From positions 1-20,139 of the forward strand of contig PJAB01000826.1 of assembly GCA_002887195.1 (NCBI GenBank): a DNA stretch of 20,139 bases, read 5' to 3'. The DNA is from Chrysochromulina parva. Taxonomy: Eukaryota > Haptophyta > Prymnesiales > Chrysochromulinaceae. The first letter of the stretch is position 1. The number at the start of each line of letters is the position of its first letter. Below the pieces are notes generated by a model, which was given only the letters and a program-made list of their open reading frames with translations, was not told the origin of the DNA and did no database searches. Made by a program: the position numbers and the translations under genes. Of this stretch, positions 2,584 to 20,139 are shown in pieces.

Positions 2584-2750
2584 CTACATCCAATCGCCTT
2601 GAACAACCAGCTGGACGCCGGGTGAGCGACCGCTCGACTGCCAGTCGTCAACAAGCAGCGCGGCCTGCTGCTCTTGCTGCTGCTGCTGCGGCGGCGGCTG
2701 CTGCGGTTGCCACTGCTGCTGCTGCTGCTCTTGCTGCTGCCACTGCTGCC

Positions 2751-2788
<38 letters not shown>

Positions 2789-2816
2789 TGCTCCTGCTGC
2801 TGCTGCCACTGCTGCC

Positions 2817-2875
<59 letters not shown>

Positions 2876-2940
2876 ATTTGCCGCATTTGCTGCTGCTGCT
2901 GCTGCTGCTGCATTTGCCGCATTTGCTGCTGCTGCTGCAT

Positions 2941-2971
<31 letters not shown>

Positions 2972-5301
2972 ATTTGCCGCATTTGCTGCTGCTGCTGCTG
3001 CATTTGCTGCTGCTGCATTTGCTGCTGCTGCCACATGGTTGCATTTGCTACTGGTGCCTTGGGCGAGTGCGCGGGTACGAGCATCATCACTTGCTGATGG
3101 TTCATCGACGCTGATGGCCTACCATCGCCCGCATGAAGCGGCGACCCAATCACGGCCGCCCGGCCTGGCGACGCGATCAGTGGCGCGAGCTGGGCGTTGC
3201 TCGGAGGGTGCTGCGCGAGCGCCCACGAGGCCGAGCGCTGCTGCACCGGGATGTTGAGCGCATTGTTCGCCTTCATTCGGCAAGTATGCCCCTTGGTCGG
3301 CTCACCGCACAGGCCACACTTGTTCACGCCGGAGCCTTCCTTACCTCGGCGGTAGAAGCGGTTGCGACACATGTGCTGCGTGCGTGTGCCTTGGAAGTAC
3401 TGGTCGGCGATCGCCTTCCACTTGTTGCCAAGCTTTTGGATGGCCTCGTCGAGTAGACGATCCTCGTCTGGCAGCCAGGGACGCGCAATGAGAGGCAATC
3501 AGAGATCCTCGTCTGGCAGCCAGGGACGCGCAATGAGAGGCAATCAGAGGTCATCAGAGGTCATCAGAGGCCATCAGAGGCAATCAGAGGCCAATCCCTC
3601 ACCTGGCAGCCAGGGCCGCTCGACGCGATAGCGCTTGTTCGAGTCCCCCTTTTTGCCATCGGGCCCGAGGGCGTCGTCATCCCCGGCGAGTACCAGCAAC
3701 TCAGCCGACATGATTGCCGTGTCTGCTGCGTCAGTGGCCAAGAGAGTCGTCGTGGGCACCACCTGTACGCCAGGGCCGGGATAGGCAGTCGCCATCGCGT
3801 GCATCTCGACGCTGGCGGCCGTGTGCTGCACCGGGACGGCGAGCGAAGCGGGCACGCTTGGTGCGCTCTGTGCGCCCGGGCGCACGCCGGCAGGCAAGGG
3901 CATGGCCGCGGGCGTCGTGGCGGGCGCGATGGCGCCGAGTATCGGGGCTGTACCAGCGCCGACCACAGCGCCTCCCATCGGCTGGTCGCCAAAGGGCGCG
4001 GCGGCGCGCGGCGGCATGGTAGCGCACGCCGCGGCACCACCGGCGTCAGTGCCCGCCGCGTCGGGCGGTGGCGCGGCGGCGGCGCTCGCGGCGCCCTCGG
4101 TCGTGCCTGCAGCCGGGTCGACAGCGTCGCCGGGGGCTGATGGGGAGGAGCCCCCGAGGGCATAGCAGCGCGCAGCGTAACCCTTCTGACAATGCATGCG
4201 CTGCATGAGCTGGCTCGTCGCCGCGCCCGCGCCGGTGAAGGCCGCCTCGGCCGGCGCCCATTCGTGTGAATCGGAGCGGCACGGCCAGCGGCCCTGACTG
4301 CGTGGTTCTCTCTCGACCATGCGCGGAGCACCGGGGCTGCCGCCGGGAGTGGGCGGCATCGGCGGCATCTGCTGCATCGGCTGCACCTGCTGCACCTGCT
4401 GCACCTGCTGCATCTGCATGCCGTTGAGGGCATACATGCCCAGTTGCGGCGCCCCGCCGTTCATCATCCTCCCCGCCGTAGGACCGTTGTTGGCTGAGAG
4501 GGCTCGGTGCAGATCGTTCGCGATCGATCGATCGTTAGCCTCGGCCGGCATCGCGCCCGGAAGCATCGACGAGGCTCCCATCATCCCCGGCATCATCCGC
4601 GCGCCCATGAGCTGCATTGGAGACGAGACTATTCCTCCGGTCGGAAAGCCCGTATGCATGCAGGCCGAACGGTCGGGCGGGCCGTTGCCCGGGCCGGCGG
4701 CGGCGTTGATCGCAGCGGCGGCGGCGGCGGCGGCGGCGGCGTTCGCGGCCGCGGTCGCCACCATGCTGTTGCGCCCGGCGTTCGGATTGCCCCCGGGACC
4801 CGATGGAGTCCCTCCTGAGGCGAGGGCCATCAGCACGTCCGACGGAGAGAACTCGACGCCCATCATCGTCTCGAGCTCGGCGCGGTTGAAATGCATGTGC
4901 GACGGGGCGGCACTCGACGACCCCCCCGACGGCGTGCCCATCAGCTGCGGCTGAGGCGGCACTGGCGGCGGCGGCATCATGGGCCGGCGCCCATTCGGAG
5001 AGTTGTCGACCGCATAATTCGGAGGCATCTGCCCGTTGGCGCCGACAAGGGTGGCGGCAGCCGCGCCGGCGCCGGCGCCGCCGGAGGGCAGGTACTCGTC
5101 GAGCCGCGGGCCGATGAACTGCTCCGATTCTTGCAAGTCGGGGTTCCCCTGATCGTCCTCGATCATGAGCAGCGGGTCAAAGCCCAGCTGCGCGGTGCCG
5201 GGGATGGAGCCAAAGGCGCCGCTCGGGAAGGAGCTGCTCGCGGGGTCCCTCCCAATCGTCGCCTGCACCATCGGCGTCTGCGGCACCTCGTCGGACGACA
5301 T
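2584..5301 (-). CDS. Myb/SANT-domain protein with C2HC knuckle and polyglutamine C-terminus (two exons)
   Basis: Exons are 5301-3603 and 3467-2584, joined at a phase-1 intron (860 residues, TAG stop). The upstream open frame has only a GTG at 5430, so the first ATG, at 5301 (MSSDEVPQ), is taken as the start. Residues 1-555 are low-complexity, rich in Ala, Pro, Gly and Met, with an alanine run near 185-200. Splicing completes one Myb/SANT repeat (about 558-607): the tryptophans of RPWLPDED and GNKWKAIA, then CRNRFYRR. Next is C617-x2-C620-x6-H627-x-C629, a small zinc-knuckle-like motif. The last 150 residues are mostly glutamine, punctuated by MRQM and WQQW. The likely role is a nuclear DNA-binding regulator (inference). 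Without splicing, the first exon would read GEGLASDCL and stop, which splits the SANT repeat. It is divergent to the FAD oxidoreductase gene. Confidence is high for the splice and domain, low for the biological role. Confidence 0.85.
2665..3031 (-). repeat. CAG/CTG trinucleotide tract coding for polyglutamine
   Basis: About 365 bp made mainly of CTG on the plus strand (CAG in the gene). It is interrupted by CAT (Met), CCA (Trp), GCG/TTG and CTC codons. The longest pure run is about 19 units at 2818-2874. It stays in frame in the Myb-type gene and gives poly-Leu or poly-Ala in the other frames, which explains the spurious long frames on both strands here. Confidence 0.95.
3459..3549. repeat. 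45-bp tandem duplication spanning an intron acceptor
   Basis: Positions 3459-3504 recur at 3504-3549 with a 45-bp period and no mismatch. The unit covers the first bases of exon 2, the 3' splice site and the end of the intron of the Myb-type gene. The outer copy therefore contains a complete decoy acceptor; if it were used, the reading would continue D-E-D-L and then hit TGA. Confidence 0.9.
3468..3602 (-). other. Intron of the Myb-type gene, with repeated exon-tail copies
   Basis: A 135-nt phase-1 intron, read on the minus strand as CTGCCAG|GTGAGG ... CTGCCAG|ACGAGG. The body consists of CCTCTGATGA/TTGCCTCTGAT-type 10-nt repeats. The 13-nt exon tail (plus-strand coordinates 3603-3615) recurs at the acceptor (3468-3480) and again at 3513-3525. 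Splicing to the acceptor at 3468 restores the SANT repeat. Confidence 0.85.
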
Positions 5302-12337: not shown

Positions 12338-13300
12338 ATGGTGTTGGCGACATTGCTGGTGGCCGCTTCGGCTCTGCACGTAATCCCTCGGCTCCCGAAA
12401 ACACGGATCGCCGGCCCAATCCGCTGCTCAGAATCTGCCACGTCAAGCAACGCTGCTGTGGCGGAGGCGCTGATGAAGGTGATTTCAGACTCTCCTTGCG
12501 TCGTATTCTCAAGAACGACGTGCCCATACTGCTTGCAGACCAAAGAGTGCTTGGATCGCGTAGGTGCAACGTACCGTGTCGTGGAGCTGGATGCTGACCC
12601 ACAAGGTCCCGCCATGGGCAAGGAGCTTGCGAGCTTGACCGGGAGGACGTCGGTGCCGGCAGTCTTCATCGGCGGCAAATTTGCAGGTGGTGCCAACGAT
12701 GGTGGCCTCGGCGGCGTGCTCACCCTGCAACGCGAGGGTGCGCTGGAGCCGCTGCTCGTGGAGAGCGGCGCGCTCGATCTGAGCGGTCAATTGAGCGATC
12801 CGGTTGCCCAGCTCTTCTCAAGTCTGTTCCAGGGCGGCAGTGGCAAACGCATCGCGTGGGGCGTGCTGCAGCAAGACGTGGATCCGGCGGCAGTGCCGGA
12901 CGCCGATGAGCGCGCGCGCCGGCGAGAGGTGGCGGCGAGCAGTCTGACCAACATCGACGCCGCGGAGCGCCAGCGGCGGCAGCTCGCAGGCACGGCGATG
13001 AGCGTCGCGACGGGGGCCCTCGCAGTGAGTCTCCTCGCGGCACACGCGGCGCCGCTGACACGCGTCGCCATAGCACCACCGCTCTTCCTCGCGTACGGGT
13101 ACCTCGCATCGGCGCGGGAGGGCCTCTGAAATATCGGGCAGGGTGGCGTCTGGGACGTGGACGGCTCCGGCCTGCAGCGGATCGAGGATCCAGTCCTCGC
13201 AACCCGACTGCGGACCAAGGTGAACACGTTCAACGCGCGCTCGATTGGTGTCGTCGCCATCGCCACCCTGCTCTATGTCGCCGTGCCCGAGCTTTTGTAA
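12338..13300 (+). CDS. Dithiol glutaredoxin fused to a membrane domain; candidate selenoprotein with in-frame TGA
   Basis: The first ATG in frame is 12338. Residues 1-17 are hydrophobic (MVLATLLVAASALHVIP) and look like a signal peptide, possibly the first part of a plastid-targeting leader. Residues about 40-145 are a glutaredoxin: VVFSRTTCPYC with the CPYC active site at 62-65, the cis-proline in TSVPAVFIGGK (P107), and the glutathione-binding GGANDG (118-123). A charged linker leads to hydrophobic segments at about 219-236 and 242-258. A TGA at 13127-13129 is codon 264. The same frame continues 56 codons (NIGQGGVWDVDGSGLQRIED...), with another hydrophobic segment, SIGVVAIATLLYVAVPELL, and then TAA at 13298-13300. 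If TGA is read as selenocysteine the protein has 320 residues; if it terminates, 263. A SECIS-like hairpin follows at 13359-13441. A sequencing error or pseudogene remains possible. The glutaredoxin call is firm; the readthrough is likely but unproven. Confidence 0.8.
13127..13129 (+). other. Candidate selenocysteine codon (in-frame TGA)
   Basis: A TGA codon in the glutaredoxin-membrane gene, flanked on both sides by coding sequence in the same frame: AREGL before, NIGQGGVWDVDG after. No GT-AG intron that removes it keeps the downstream frame: donors at 13093 and 13099 with the acceptor at 13141 give 49 and 43 nt, neither divisible by three. Confidence 0.6.
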
Positions 13301-13619
13301 GGAGAGGCTGTAGAAGAGTAAGAGAGGGAGACACATGAGCTCCCGCTCGCATGCGGCTCGCCCGGCCCTCGACGTGATGGCACGTGCCTCCCTCTCGGCA
13401 CTTCCGGGAAGGCACGACTGCTTGAGAAGGATCGGTCGGCGTGTTCGCAACCCCGTGGGGATCCCAGCTGGGGGGCTCCGTGATCCCAAGTACGCAACTG
13501 TCTAAAAGTTGACGTTGCATGCACACACGGGTTCTGTTTCTTCTCTGAAACCGAAAAAAACGATCAAGTACATCAAGAAAAAAGTAAAAACAGCAGTCCG
13601 TCCAGCACTCGTATCGCAG
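13301..13619. other. Intergenic region holding the SECIS-like hairpin
   Basis: 319 bp between the glutaredoxin TAA and the EF-hand gene ATG. The first half contains the SECIS-like fold. The second half (13505-13619) is A-rich, with runs of AAAAAA around 13553-13590, and is probably the 5' UTR or promoter of the EF-hand gene; its open frame upstream of 13620 starts only with TTG. Confidence 0.45.
13359..13441 (+). promoter_or_regulatory. SECIS-like stem-loop in the 3' UTR
   Basis: Folded by eye. Helix I pairs 13359-13367 with 13434-13441 (8 pairs, one bulged C). An internal loop follows. The core has GTGA (13374-13377) opposite TTGAG (13422-13426). Helix II pairs GGCA and CGTGCCT (13379-13389) with AGGCACG and TGCT (13410-13422, two bulged bases). 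A bulge holds CC (from 13390), 12 nt after the GTGA. Helix III is CTCGG/CCGGG with a CACTT loop. This is the layout of a form-2 eukaryotic SECIS, with CC in place of the usual AA. It lies 58 nt after the TAA of the glutaredoxin gene. Confidence 0.5.
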
Positions 13620-16183
13620 ATGCCTCTCCCTAGAAGCGCCGTACCCGATGTGTCATCGCCCCAGACCTCCATGAAAGTGTCGTGGAACCTCGACCACGCC
13701 TTTGAAGCGGTGCAAGCCTCGATTGCAGACGCTGTTGAAACGTCATCGTGGAAGGCGGTATTTCCAGAGTGCATAACGCTGGAGACTCGTGAAGACCTTT
13801 CCATCGAGGAGCAGGTGCACGCCATCCTGAGCAAGCACTCGGCGATCCTCGATGCTCTCTTTCACCAGTGGGACGTGGATGGGAAGGGCAGCTTCACTCT
13901 TACCGAGGTATGAATGGCACGCAACCGAAGAGCAGTCGGGGCATGTTGCATGGTAAGTTGCATGGTGCTTGATTCTCACAGAGTGCGTGACGTCGAGTCT
14001 CGTCATCCCAGTTTCGCGACGGCCTCACGGCGTTGGGCTACTTAGTGCCCATGCGCGAGCTCGCGGCCGTCTTTTCGTCGATGGACATGGAGGGAACCGG
14101 CGTCATCCAGTTTGAGCAATTCAAGGCAGCGCACAGCCCAAACGGCATCGAGCCTCCCAGACAGAAGGCAAGCGTGGCGAGCGTCCTTGGCCAGCTCAAG
14201 ATGGCGCTCGCCAAGAACCTCAACCGGGTTATCGACACATTCCGCGACTTTGATGAGAACCATTCTGGTCAGCTCGACAAGCACCCATTTCGGCTCGCGT
14301 TGCAGAAGCTCGGCATCGTCGGCCGCGCGTCTGCGTTCGACGACACCTTTGACTCGATCGACAAGGATCGCTCGGGTATCCTGGAGTATCACGAGCTCAA
14401 GCATCATCTGGCCCGGCGGCACACCGGCGATCCGTTCATCGATCTTCGGCGGCGCACCGCCGACCCATTCCTTGAATTTGAAGAGTACCAGGCAGCACTC
14501 ACTAGAAAGGCCGCGGGGTGGAAGGCGAGAGAGGCGGCGCAGAGGACGCTGCAAGCGGTGGACGCCAAGTTGGACGCGGCGAGCAAGGCGGTGGCGCTGA
14601 CGGCCGAGCAAGCAGAGAAGGCAGCCGCGGCGGAGAAGGCAGCGGTCTTGTCTGCCGAGCGGGCGGCGACGTCGGCCGCGGTTGTCAAGGCGAACAAGCA
14701 GGCTGAGAAGGCGAAGGCGGAGGAGGCAAAGTTCAAGAAGCTGCAGGAGGCGGCTCGGCTCGAGATGCATCGTGAGCAGGCTGAGGCTCTGGCGGAGGCT
14801 CAGAGGCATGCAAAGGCGATGGCGGCGGTGGCAGCGGCAGCGGCGGCGGCGGCAGCGGCGGCAGCCGAGCACAAGGCAACCGTTGCCAACGGCTTTGTTC
14901 AGCTCAAGATGGCGGTCGCCAAGAACCTCAATCGGACGATCGACACGTTCCGTGAGTTTGACGAGGACCAGTCGGGCACGGTTGACAAGCGCGAGTTCCG
15001 GCTCGGGCTGCAGAAGCTCGGCATCCCTGGGCACGAGGCTGCTTTCGATGAGATCTTCGACTCGATCGACAAGGATCGCTCGGGCTATCTCGACTACCAT
15101 GAGCTCAACCGCCATCTCCGGCGCCGCTCGAGGGATCCCTCGCACACGAGCGCGATGGGCGTCCTCTCCAGAGGGGGGGGCGCAGCTGGAGCTGTGAACG
15201 GGGGCGCAGCTGGAGCTGTGAACGGAGCTTTGAGGAGTGCGCCATCGCCCCAGCCGGCGCTCAGAGTCGGGGGAGTCCGTCCGTGTATCGGCACGTTCCT
15301 CGCTCACCACAGCGCGCACTTGATGCAACTGTTTCATGAGTGGGACTTGGGTCGACGCGGAGCGCTGGACAAGCATAAGATGAGGGGCAACCTTTTGCGC
15401 GTGTGCACGTCACTTGGGTGGCCCGCGAGTGCCGCCTCTTGCAATGCCGATCTCGACGAACTCCTGAAGCACCTCGACCTCAACGGCGACGGCAAGATCA
15501 CGTTTGCAGAGCTCAAGCGCGGATTGAACGGCTTCGGCCGCACGGGGGGGGATACGCCGAGCTGGGAGCTGGCGAGCAGTGCCTTGGCGAGCCACGGCGC
15601 CTCTTGTGCAGCCGCTCGGCGCTCGTCGTTGGCCGAAAGGGGCGCCCGTCACGGCGCCAAGGCGTCGAGCCCGAAGCCACGGTGCCAATCTGCGGGGAGG
15701 TGCCAATCTGCGGGGCGGAGCTCGCGATCTCCGGGGACCGCGGGGAGCCCGATCAAGCTTCGGTGGCACGATGGCGTGCTCGTGGAGAAGGGCAGTACCC
15801 CGATGCTCTCGGCGCTCGAGTATGCGCTCGGTGGTACCGCCAAGCAGTCCGGCGCGAACCCCGCGTCAGGTGCTGGGACGAGGGGCGAGGCGACGCGTGA
15901 GCGTGAGCGGCAGAAGACGGCGGGGGCATTCTCGGGCTTGATGCGTGAGGCGGCGAGGGAGTCCGCGGCCGCCATGCGGGAAGCCGAGGCCGTCGAGCTT
16001 CGCAAGCAGCTGGATGATGCAATCCTTCAGAAGCAGCGCGCCCAGGTGTGCGCCTGGCCAGGGGCGCACGTGCCCATCCCCCTCGCCCAGGTGTGCGCCG
16101 CCTGGTCAGAGGAGGAGATGCTTGTCGAGGCGCGGCGGGCTCGCCGGATGGGCACGCTAGGCGGCCAAGGGAAACCGAGTTAG
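13620..16183 (+). CDS. Eight-EF-hand calcium-binding protein with alanine-rich coiled coil (two exons)
   Basis: Exons are 13620-13907 and 14012-16183 (819 residues, TAG stop); the intron is phase 0. The first ATG is 13620, and earlier in-frame starts are TTG only. EF loops: 85-96 (DVDGKGSFTLTE, completed by the splice, then F), 121-132 (degenerate, Q at position 12), 177-188 (degenerate, P at position 12), 213-224 (DKDRSGILEYHE), 413-424 (DEDQSGTVDKRE), 449-460 (DKDRSGYLDYHE), one degenerate (DLGRRGALDKHK) and a last canonical DLNGDGKITFAE. Two 75-residue modules (about 157-230 and 393-466) are close copies. Between them, residues 265-385 form an Ala/Glu/Lys-rich helix, probably a coiled coil, ending in a polyalanine run. 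The C-terminal third is Ser/Gly/Arg-rich with a repeated RCQSAG and a charged helix. It is likely a calcium sensor or scaffold; no enzymatic domain is visible. Confidence 0.9.
13908..14011 (+). other. EF-hand gene intron
   Basis: A 104-nt phase-0 intron, ACCGAG|GTATGA ... ATCCCAG|TTTCGC. It falls exactly after position 12 of the first EF loop. It contains GTTGCATGGT twice but none of the CTCTGATG-type repeats and no exon-tail copy, unlike the introns of the Myb-type and GAF genes. Confidence 0.9.
14192..15123 (+). repeat. Duplicated EF-hand pair module in the EF-hand gene
   Basis: Segments 14192-14415 and 14900-15123 (offset 708) are similar at both DNA and protein level. Each encodes QLKMA-AKNLNR-IDTFR-FDE...LQKLGI...FDSIDKDRSG...YHEL and contains two EF loops. 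They are separated by the sequence for the alanine-rich helix. Confidence 0.85.
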
Positions 16184-17877: not shown

Positions 17878-19534
17878 ATGTCAGAACTGCTCGCAGGCAT
17901 AAGATTCGTGAGCAAGGCCGACCTCGACGAGCGGAAGCGTTTGGCCAAAGATGCTGAGCAGCGCCGAGAGGTGGAGGCCAAGGAAGCTGCCAAGGAGCGG
18001 CGACAAGCGGCGGTCGCGTCCGTAGCCTCTGGCCAGAGCAAGTGGCTCGCGCCAGCGCTGGCGCGCAGGCTGGGTGGCACGGGCGCAGGCGGGGCTGAAA
18101 AGGATGACGAGCTGGAGCGCAAGCGCGAAAAGAAGGAGAAGCACCACAAGAGCGACAAGGACAAGCACAAGCACAAGAGCGAGAGAAAGCACAAACACAA
18201 GCACAAACACGACAAGAGCGAGGGCCCCGACGCTCCGGCCGGATCCGACGCGAGCCCGAGCAGCGACGACGACGCTGCAGGCGAGCTGGCGAAAGCGCCC
18301 GCGGAGGCGGCTCCAAGCGCTGCGGCGGTCCGTGCACCCGTTGCGGGCGATGCACCCGTTGCGGGCGATGCTGCCCGGTCGGCTGCCGGGCTCGACTGGA
18401 TGCAGCGGGACTGGATGCGCCCGCCCACGGCAGCGGACGGTGCCAAGAGTATCGCCGCCGCCGCCGCCGCAGCTCTGGACCTGCGCGCGCCGCCCAAGGT
18501 GGCTGAGGGCCTCGCCGACGCGGCCGTTAGCGCCGCGCCGAGCACTCGAATCTCGAGGGAGCTCAATCCATATGCCCGAGATGGCGCCGAGATTGATCAG
18601 TGGACCGCGAAGGCGTTGGGGCGTCAGGAGGAGGCGCCGGTGGAAGCGGTGCGCGCGGCGGGCACGGACGGCGGGACGAGCTGGCAGCAGAAGAAGCTGA
18701 AGCGCGCTGTGGAGGAGGCGCGGGAAACGGGCCGGAGCTTAACGGAGATTTGCATGGAGCGATGGGGCGATCTGACGAATCTGGCGCAGCTCGAAGCGAT
18801 CTCCCGGGCGCCAGCCGAGCGCGCAGGCAAGGGCGGCATGGGCCAGGGCGCCGCCTTCGACGCGCACCTGAGTGCCGGGGCGGCGCGCGCGAGAGAGGCA
18901 CCGCCCAAGCGCCGTGGCGACGCCTTCGACCCGGTCAGCAAAGGCGATGGGCACACTGGCGATGACAAGGGCTGGAGCAGGCGCGGCGAAGGGCGCGGCG
19001 AAGGGCGCGGCGAAGGGCGCGGCGAAGGGCGCGTCGAAGGGCGCGGCGAAGGGCGCGGCGAAGGGCGTGGAGACGGCAGTGAGCGCAACCACAGCAAGGG
19101 GATCGGTATGCAACGTCCCAAGCTCTCGTGGGAAGCGCCGTCCCAAGCGTGCGAAGCGCCGTCCCAAGCGTGCGAAGCGCCGTCCCAAGCGCTGTCGGCC
19201 CATGCGAGCCGAGAGGCAGCACCGCTCGCGCCGCCCGCCGCGCTTCCAAATGCCTTTGCAAACGACGGCAGCTTCCTCGCGAGCTATGAGGCTGGGCGGC
19301 AGCGGCAGGCGTCCCAGTACGGCGCGCCTGCCGCCCAGTACGGCGCGTGCTCTTCGTCACCGGTACCGGTAGGAGGCGCGGTGACGGGCACGGCTGCGTG
19401 CACGGCTGCGGCTGGGGTGGAGGTCCCGATGCGAGTAGCACTCGCCGCGGGGGCGGCGCAGGAAGCGGCGCACGGCCAGGTTTCGTCGCACGGCCAGGTT
19501 TCGTCACTGGACGAGGCAGCGGAGATCGGCGGCG

Positions 19535-19566
<32 letters not shown>

Positions 19567-19974
19567 GGCAGCGGCAGCGGCGGCGGCGGCAGAGGCGACG
19601 GCTACATAGATCTCAATAAGCTTGCAGCCAAAGCGATGAAGGCGATGCTTATGGGCAACCTTGCAGAGCATGAGCGTCTGAGCGCGCTCATAGCACGCGC
19701 CAAGGCCGACGGCAGCGCCGCGCCTCCGCCACCGCCGCAGCCAGCGTCGGCACGTCCAGCGCATGCAGACGCATCGGAACGGGAGCGGACAGTTCAACTC
19801 GCGGTGCCGCTGAGCGCCGTCGGTGTCATCATCGGCAAGGGCGGTGCGACCATCGACGCGCTCCAAGCCGAAAGTGGTGCCAAGATTAGGGTGCCTAGAG
19901 GACAGGATGCCGAAGGAGGCGAGGAGCGCGTCGTCCTGATCAGTGGAAGCGCCGTGGCGATCGATAAGGCGCAG
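17878..19974 (+). CDS. CWF19L2: CWF19-like protein 2 (spliceosome-associated), N-terminal part with KH domain; continues past right edge
   Basis: 699 codons from the ATG at 17878 to a probable donor (GCGCAG|GTGACT). Landmarks of CWF19L2 occur in order: the N-terminal GIRFVSKADLDERK...SKWLAP; a Lys/His/Glu-rich tract (about 75-118); SRELNPYARDG (about 226-236; human has RELNPYWKDGG); GTDGGTSWQQKKLKRA...MERWGDL (about 262-302); and DLNKLAAKAMKAMLMGN (about 578-594; human has KNKLGAKIIKAEMMGN). These proteins act with the late spliceosome and lariat turnover. A KH domain follows at about 638-699 with I-I-G-K-G-G (GxxG loop at 653-656), which I do not know from other members. The usual CwfJ C-terminal domains are absent here, presumably encoded beyond the window. 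The linker has (GEGR)n, EAPSQAC and Gly/Ser repeats. If no splice occurs, translation ends at the TGA at 19996-19998. Family assignment is good; the KH fusion is notable. Confidence 0.82.
18981..19072 (+). repeat. 12-bp repeat coding (GEGR)n
   Basis: About seven copies of GGCGAAGGGCGC, one with a Val codon, in the disordered linker of the CWF19-like gene. Confidence 0.9.
19132..19194 (+). repeat. 21-bp tandem repeat, three copies (EAPSQAC)
   Basis: Units at 19132-19152, 19153-19173 and 19174-19194; the last diverges in its final bases. In frame in the CWF19-like gene. Confidence 0.9.
19530..19599 (+). repeat. Gly/Ser-coding GGC/AGC repeat
   Basis: A run of GGCGGC and AGC codons encoding a Gly/Ser-rich linker directly before the DLNKLAAKAMKAM helix of the CWF19-like protein. 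Confidence 0.9.
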
Positions 19975-20139
19975 GTGACTGTCACTGATGCCCTCTGATG
20001 GCCCTCTGATGCCCTCTGATGATGCCCTCTGATGCCCCTCTAATATCCTCTGATCACGGCACGAGAGCAAGCTCCGACACTCCCTTACGTGAGCGCCGTC
20101 ACTGAGCCTTGCCGAGCTCAATATGTGCTACATCCAGAC
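19975..20139 (+). other. Probable start of an intron of the CWF19-like gene (runs off right edge)
   Basis: The KH-coding exon ends GCGCAG|GTGACT in phase 0. The sequence that follows (GATGCCCTCTGATGGCCCTCTGATG...) is the same repeat type as in the introns of the GAF and Myb-type genes. No acceptor can be assigned; a CAG at 20135-20137 is too close to the edge to judge. Confidence 0.6.

Follow-up and report, generated by a model that had tools for sequence, protein, structure and literature searches.

Does the TGA that interrupts a glutaredoxin-membrane protein gene in the haptophyte Chrysochromulina parva end the protein, or does it encode selenocysteine (Sec)? The gene lies on the plus strand of a stretch of 20,139 nucleotides, contig PJAB01000826.1 of assembly GCA_002887195.1, which we refer to as the window, and an earlier note made from its letters alone had proposed it as a candidate new selenoprotein. 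We favor Sec at codon 264, with a probability of roughly 0.92. Homologs carry Cys at this position, the host genome has the marks of a Sec-decoding genome, and an element resembling a selenocysteine insertion sequence (SECIS) lies downstream; these results support the earlier proposal, and from them we infer the presence of Sec in the protein itself.

Conserved coding sequence on both sides of the TGA

Translation of the frame at 12338-13300 gave 263 codons, a single in-frame TGA (13127-13129), and a tail of 56 codons that starts NIGQGGVWDVDGSGLQRIED and is closed by TAA at 13298-13300, which is the layout that had been described. The CPYC glutaredoxin reported upstream of the TGA was recovered as a match to PF00462 (61.5 bits against a cut-off of 22.9; Table 1) and is of the dithiol type. 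No Sec occurs within the glutaredoxin active-site motif, which is all Cys; the Sec codon instead sits outside it, in a membrane domain for which there is no family model. Pfam returned no match at an E-value of 0.01 for the tail alone and none for the remainder of the protein outside the glutaredoxin, and a profile search of solved structures found no relative (best E 0.42). A further argument of the earlier note, that no gene in the window needs TGA as its stop, stood only in part: among nine long open reading frames (ORFs) checked, five end in TAG and the frame considered here in TAA, as had been stated, but three end in TGA. ORF ends are mechanical, and stop usage in the window therefore proves nothing.

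The tail was assessed through relatives, which we label P0002-P0044 (the window protein being P0001) and which were compared as protein sequences. A first search, using residues 165-320 as the query with the TGA taken as Cys, returned seven proteins; six stop one residue before the TGA, and the seventh, P0008, continues with Cys exactly opposite it (SAQQGL-C-NIAQAGVWDVDGSGL, compared to SAREGL-TGA-NIGQGGVWDVDGSGL in the window). When compared on its own, the 56-residue tail is identical to P0008 at 25/54 positions (46%) with no gaps, and the E-value of this single comparison is 4e-15. The GC content at third codon positions is 0.82 in the tail, 0.81 in the membrane part, and 0.69 in the glutaredoxin part, and the eight full-length rows, counting the window, all agree at 14 of the 56 tail positions. 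The ungapped match and the third-position bias bear out the description of the tail as protein-like; both go beyond chance, and the tail is, as judged from sequence, real protein. Coding conservation is thus found on both sides of the in-frame TGA, as in a selenoprotein gene. Because the P0008 alignment crosses the TGA without a gap there is no room for an intron at this point, and excision of the TGA by splicing is ruled out.

Residues aligned with codon 264 in relatives

Two further searches yielded 18 rows from P0008 (itself included) and 27 rows from profile A3, for which the best 8000 candidates were scored, for a total of 43 distinct relatives over all searches; none were found in collections of viral contigs and genome contigs. 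At the TGA column, 35 of the 43 end one residue before, at residue 263, four carry Cys (P0008, P0010, P0012, and P0013), three carry Trp (P0009, P0011, and P0014), and one diverges. P0016 was scored as Cys by our script and was excluded from this count because its alignment diverges just before the position. Homologs with Cys aligned to codon 264 and with sequence beyond it, which the earlier note had named as a check, were therefore recovered, and the outcome it had listed as refuting, that all homologs would end at the TGA, did not occur; seven of the 43 run past, though 35 end there. The listed Pfam domains of the ending relatives never reach the membrane part. P0008 has no Pfam match even at an E-value of 1, and P0010 and P0014 have matches only below curated cut-offs; with NCBIfam, glutaredoxin-type models matched P0001 and P0037 below cut-off, and none matched P0008, P0010, or P0012.

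We then placed these residues on a tree built from 44 rows and 121 columns of the membrane part; this tree divides into clades of 21 and 23 rows. All rows for which a glutaredoxin domain is listed fall, with the window gene, in the 21-row clade (15/21, window included), the remaining six being shorter proteins; this clade includes a haptophyte and lacks any Cys or Trp form. In the 23-row clade, which we provisionally describe as diatom-like, no row has a listed glutaredoxin domain, and ending forms are intermixed with Cys and Trp forms. The scatter of Cys forms among ending forms is the usual pattern of Sec/Cys exchange. An A-F-x-P motif, which we take to direct proteins to the plastid in algae whose plastids are secondary, occurs in the first 75 residues of 12/23 rows of the clade without glutaredoxin and of 1/20 other relatives; these counts would be consistent with a plastid location.

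The large number of ending relatives fits the truncation of selenoproteins whose genes are called with the standard code. It would also be expected if the TGA were a true stop, such that translation halts after residue 263 and the tail, a remnant of some longer ancestral protein, is no longer read, and two of the 35, both ending at residue 263, are transcript-derived: P0034 (label MMETSP1333, taxid 418940, the haptophyte Scyphosphaera apsteinii) and P0037 (which bears the label of an MMETSP transcript ORF). A remnant would decay, however, whereas this tail keeps its frame, its codon-position bias, and its identity to a distant relative, and the interleaving of Cys and ending forms in the tree is likewise at odds with a stop. 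We consider a true stop very unlikely.

Selenocysteine decoding in the host genome

The host genome assembly is a draft of 45,074,565 bases in 2199 contigs. It contains a tRNA-Sec (70.7 bits, cut-off 47), the TCA anticodon of which could be read in the sequence, and SepSecS (E 1.9e-124, model positions 1-388 of 389). As a gauge of specificity, the tRNA-Sec cut-off was also passed by 5 of 14 control genomes, and SepSecS was matched in 3 of 14. Four classic selenoprotein families gave 28 matches, 20 of which contain a TGA (Rdx 4/4, GPx 8/11, Sep15/SelM 3/3, MsrA 5/10), and translation places it at the active site in 19 of these 20, the active-site count for MsrA being 4/10. On this sequence evidence the host genome decodes Sec, and there is good support for Sec being inserted in the way usual for eukaryotes. 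What is new is the protein rather than the decoding machinery, which is ordinary.

With only four families searched, the 19 active-site TGAs (loci L004-L011, L013-L016, L036-L038, L042-L044, and L047) point to a large selenoproteome in this alga. The remaining TGA-bearing match, MsrA locus L041 (G000:C1155:15819-16247), keeps its active-site Cys, and its TGA falls at codon 141 of the 143 in the match; this TGA may be an exon end, an ordinary stop, or something else. At a glutaredoxin-like match, L033 (G000:C35:3633-4037), the single TGA is the last codon of the match and probably an ordinary stop.

A SECIS-like hairpin downstream of the gene

Between 58 and 139 nt past the TAA, in the 3′ untranslated region, lies a candidate SECIS element. 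Helix I pairs 13358-13365 with 13432-13439 (seven pairs, one mismatch), the core places GTGA (13374-13377) opposite GA (13424-13425), helix II has a folding energy of -22.1 kcal/mol, and an unpaired CCC lies 12-14 nt past the core. When this segment is folded alone, the minimum-energy fold keeps helix II and pairs part of the internal loop, and the centroid leaves the core open. We scanned for the topology as an RTGA core, a facing GA, helix II, an unpaired AA or CC 9-14 nt after the core, and helix I. The only match in 13298-13620 was the GTGA at 13374, and an ATGA at 13334 was accordingly rejected as the core. In 2000 dinucleotide shuffles of this region there were 9 matches at or below -15 kcal/mol, 3 at -18, 2 at -20, and none at -22. 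The same settings were calibrated on up to 1300 nt downstream (less at a locus end) of loci of the host genome, with L023 and L033 left out (contig edge; unclear frame); a match was found in 11/20 TGA-bearing loci compared to 0/20 control loci, or in 11/19 without L041, which is itself without a match and whose TGA is not at the active site. The window gene thus has a SECIS-like element with a variant core in the place expected for a selenoprotein, and decoding of its TGA as Sec through this hairpin is strongly indicated.

Across both strands of the whole window (40,278 bases) the scan returned two matches; the second, at 1283 on the plus strand (-17.3 kcal/mol), has no known Sec gene that could be seen upstream of it. 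An Rfam match to mir-9201 at 13402-13314 on the minus strand (23.5 bits, cut-off 95.5) was taken as chance.

Evidence against selenocysteine and remaining alternatives

Several results weigh against Sec at codon 264. SelD (TIGR00476) had no match in the host genome, and eEFSec was not identified there with either TIGR00475 or PF21208, in a draft in which exon-split genes may be missed. TIGR00475 gave 21 rows, all below cut-off. Eight had a locus that was scanned by Pfam; five were rejected as other factors (L019, an EF-Tu-like factor; L020, IF-2; L022, LepA; L024, BipA; L025, eIF2-gamma), and L021, L023, and L026 carry general GTPase or EF-G/EF-Tu-type domains only, with L021 and L023 assigned to no particular factor. 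The one match to PF21208 (25 bits, cut-off 27) falls within a repeat-rich reading frame containing extended stretches of Gln and Ala. The hairpin itself combines a GTGA core with CC, whereas all 11 calibration matches have ATGA, 10 of them flagged by AA and one (L014) by CC. GUGA cores with AA are reported from most SECIS elements of two Ostreococcus species and of Chlamydomonas reinhardtii, as well as from many of those of sponges, in a passage of PMC3473315 that does not extend to GUGA with CC. Moreover, the scan was designed after the hairpin had been spotted by eye, and folding is sensitive to the segment chosen: for 13298-13500 the long hairpin is present in the centroid fold while the minimum-energy fold is another structure, and this segment taken whole is no more stable than its shuffles (z 0.91); when 13310-13405 is folded by itself, a competing hairpin is favored (z -2.43, 3/200 shuffles as good). 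Rfam SECIS_1 had no match in the window or in the whole host genome; since it is silent across the entire genome, this model does not discriminate.

The Trp at the TGA column in three relatives belongs with these points, as it would fit readthrough of the TGA as an ordinary amino acid (e.g., Trp) with no involvement of selenium. Because the near kin of the Trp rows end at the position (P0009 and P0018 are identical at 164/181 residues, P0011 and P0018 at 144/180, and P0014 and P0026 at 138/150), we suspect, judging from the proteins, that the Trp reflects gene calling in which TGA was translated as Trp, with true TGG as the alternative. Ordinary readthrough also fits poorly with the Cys in four relatives, with a genome in which many TGAs are decoded as Sec, and with the SECIS-like hairpin, and we regard it as extremely improbable. 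A sequencing error or broken allele, although conceivable in a single assembly, has a negligible chance of being correct, since P0002 and P0031 (representatives of clusters of 82 and 26 member sequences, themselves alone compared, each 98% identical to the window protein yet distinct in sequence) also stop at residue 263, and the sole full-length copy of the gene in the host genome has no further stop. Seven other matches in this genome fall within residues 3-148, the N-terminal and glutaredoxin part.

Relation to known selenoproteins

In thioredoxin-glutathione reductase (TGR/TXNRD3), a soluble flavoprotein that carries GCUG at its C-terminus, a fused N-terminal glutaredoxin exchanges electrons with a distal Sec. 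The window protein shares the N-terminal glutaredoxin and the distal Sec but has no flavin domain detectable by Pfam, and its Sec would lie in a membrane domain. A survey of algae described 42 selenoprotein families, the nearest by name being GRX, MSP, and "Hypo", in the passages considered here (PMC7539508). The Sec-GRX of that survey, present in SAR algae and haptophytes, is likewise a glutaredoxin-domain selenoprotein of lineages rich in selenoproteins; the glutaredoxin of the window, however, has a plain CPYC, with the TGA ~200 residues later in the membrane domain, a comparison made by description in which overlap with some haptophyte entry is possible. An entry "Glx, glutaredoxin" also appears among the Aureococcus selenoproteins in the consulted part of PMC5917014. 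MSP, reported from only Dictyostelium, Chlamydomonas, Volvox, and Ostreococcus in the relevant passage of PMC2375036, is similarly a predicted membrane selenoprotein of protists; it has two Sec residues, whereas the window protein has one TGA and a glutaredoxin, and by description the two are set apart. Among the titles and abstract openings of literature on algal, membrane, and glutaredoxin selenoproteins, without most subscription journals and bioRxiv, no glutaredoxin-membrane selenoprotein is described.

We take this to be a true selenoprotein gene whose family is probably undescribed, with novelty likely within the literature covered. We lean toward the view that it is the founding member of a family in haptophytes and diatom-like algae in which Sec is at the edge of a plastid-membrane domain outside any thioredoxin fold, that a glutaredoxin was joined to it in haptophytes to serve as a built-in reductant, and that Sec repeatedly gave way to Cys in other lineages.

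Possible function and significance

A tentative functional picture, which we put forward as somewhat less probable than its opposite, is that of a membrane selenol recycled by a fused glutaredoxin. The gene most probably encodes one selenoprotein of 320 residues, and in this picture the N-terminus would direct it to a membrane, probably that of the plastid. Sec would be located past a hydrophobic segment and ahead of a conserved NIGQGGVWDVDG motif, where its reactive selenol may attack peroxides or disulfides at the membrane. The CPYC glutaredoxin fused to it, together with glutathione, would re-reduce it in cis; in relatives without the domain, a separate glutaredoxin may do so in trans. A redox role of residue 264 is suggested because Cys and Sec exchange among relatives, and a position at the membrane because of the hydrophobic segments; the fused glutaredoxin would be its natural redox partner.

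Selenoproteins are easily truncated in gene catalogs, and here 35/43 relatives end at the presumed Sec codon. If Sec is correct, the records of a conserved membrane protein of phytoplankton lack its active residue and the last 57 of its 320 residues. For haptophytes and diatom-like algae, one could then also test whether selenium supply bears on the redox protection of membranes or plastids. Fused and separate glutaredoxins would form a natural pair for studying how a membrane selenol is recycled.

Layout of the gene and neighboring frames

Table 1 Features of the gene, listed by position in the window.
Feature	Position	Strand	Evidence
Whole frame: hydrophobic N-terminus, glutaredoxin, linker, membrane domain, Sec (predicted), tail, TAA	12338..13300	+	
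Hydrophobic N-terminus, residues 1-20, probable signal peptide	12338..12397	+	Hydropathy
Glutaredoxin domain, residues 55-115	12500..12682	+	PF00462, E 8.9e-17
CPYC dithiol motif, residues 62-65, plain Cys without Sec	12521..12532	+	Translation
Hydrophobic stretch, residues 215-246, in unnamed membrane domain	12980..13075	+	Hydropathy
In-frame TGA, codon 264, read as probable Sec	13127..13129	+	Cys in P0008, P0010, P0012, P0013
Conserved 56-codon tail, final hydrophobic stretch at residues 297-320	13130..13297	+	25/54 identity to P0008
SECIS-like hairpin, 3′ untranslated region, 58-139 nt after TAA	13358..13439	+	Topology scan, centroid folds

Hydropathy gave a fourth, weaker hydrophobic stretch at residues 39-57, and the membrane topology that these stretches suggest is a prediction from hydropathy only. 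The neighboring frames in the window (2584-3498, minus strand; 14033-16183 and 17878-19998, plus strand), among them a long Gln-repeat ORF and proteins with an EF-hand and a KH domain, respectively, show no obvious connection to selenium.
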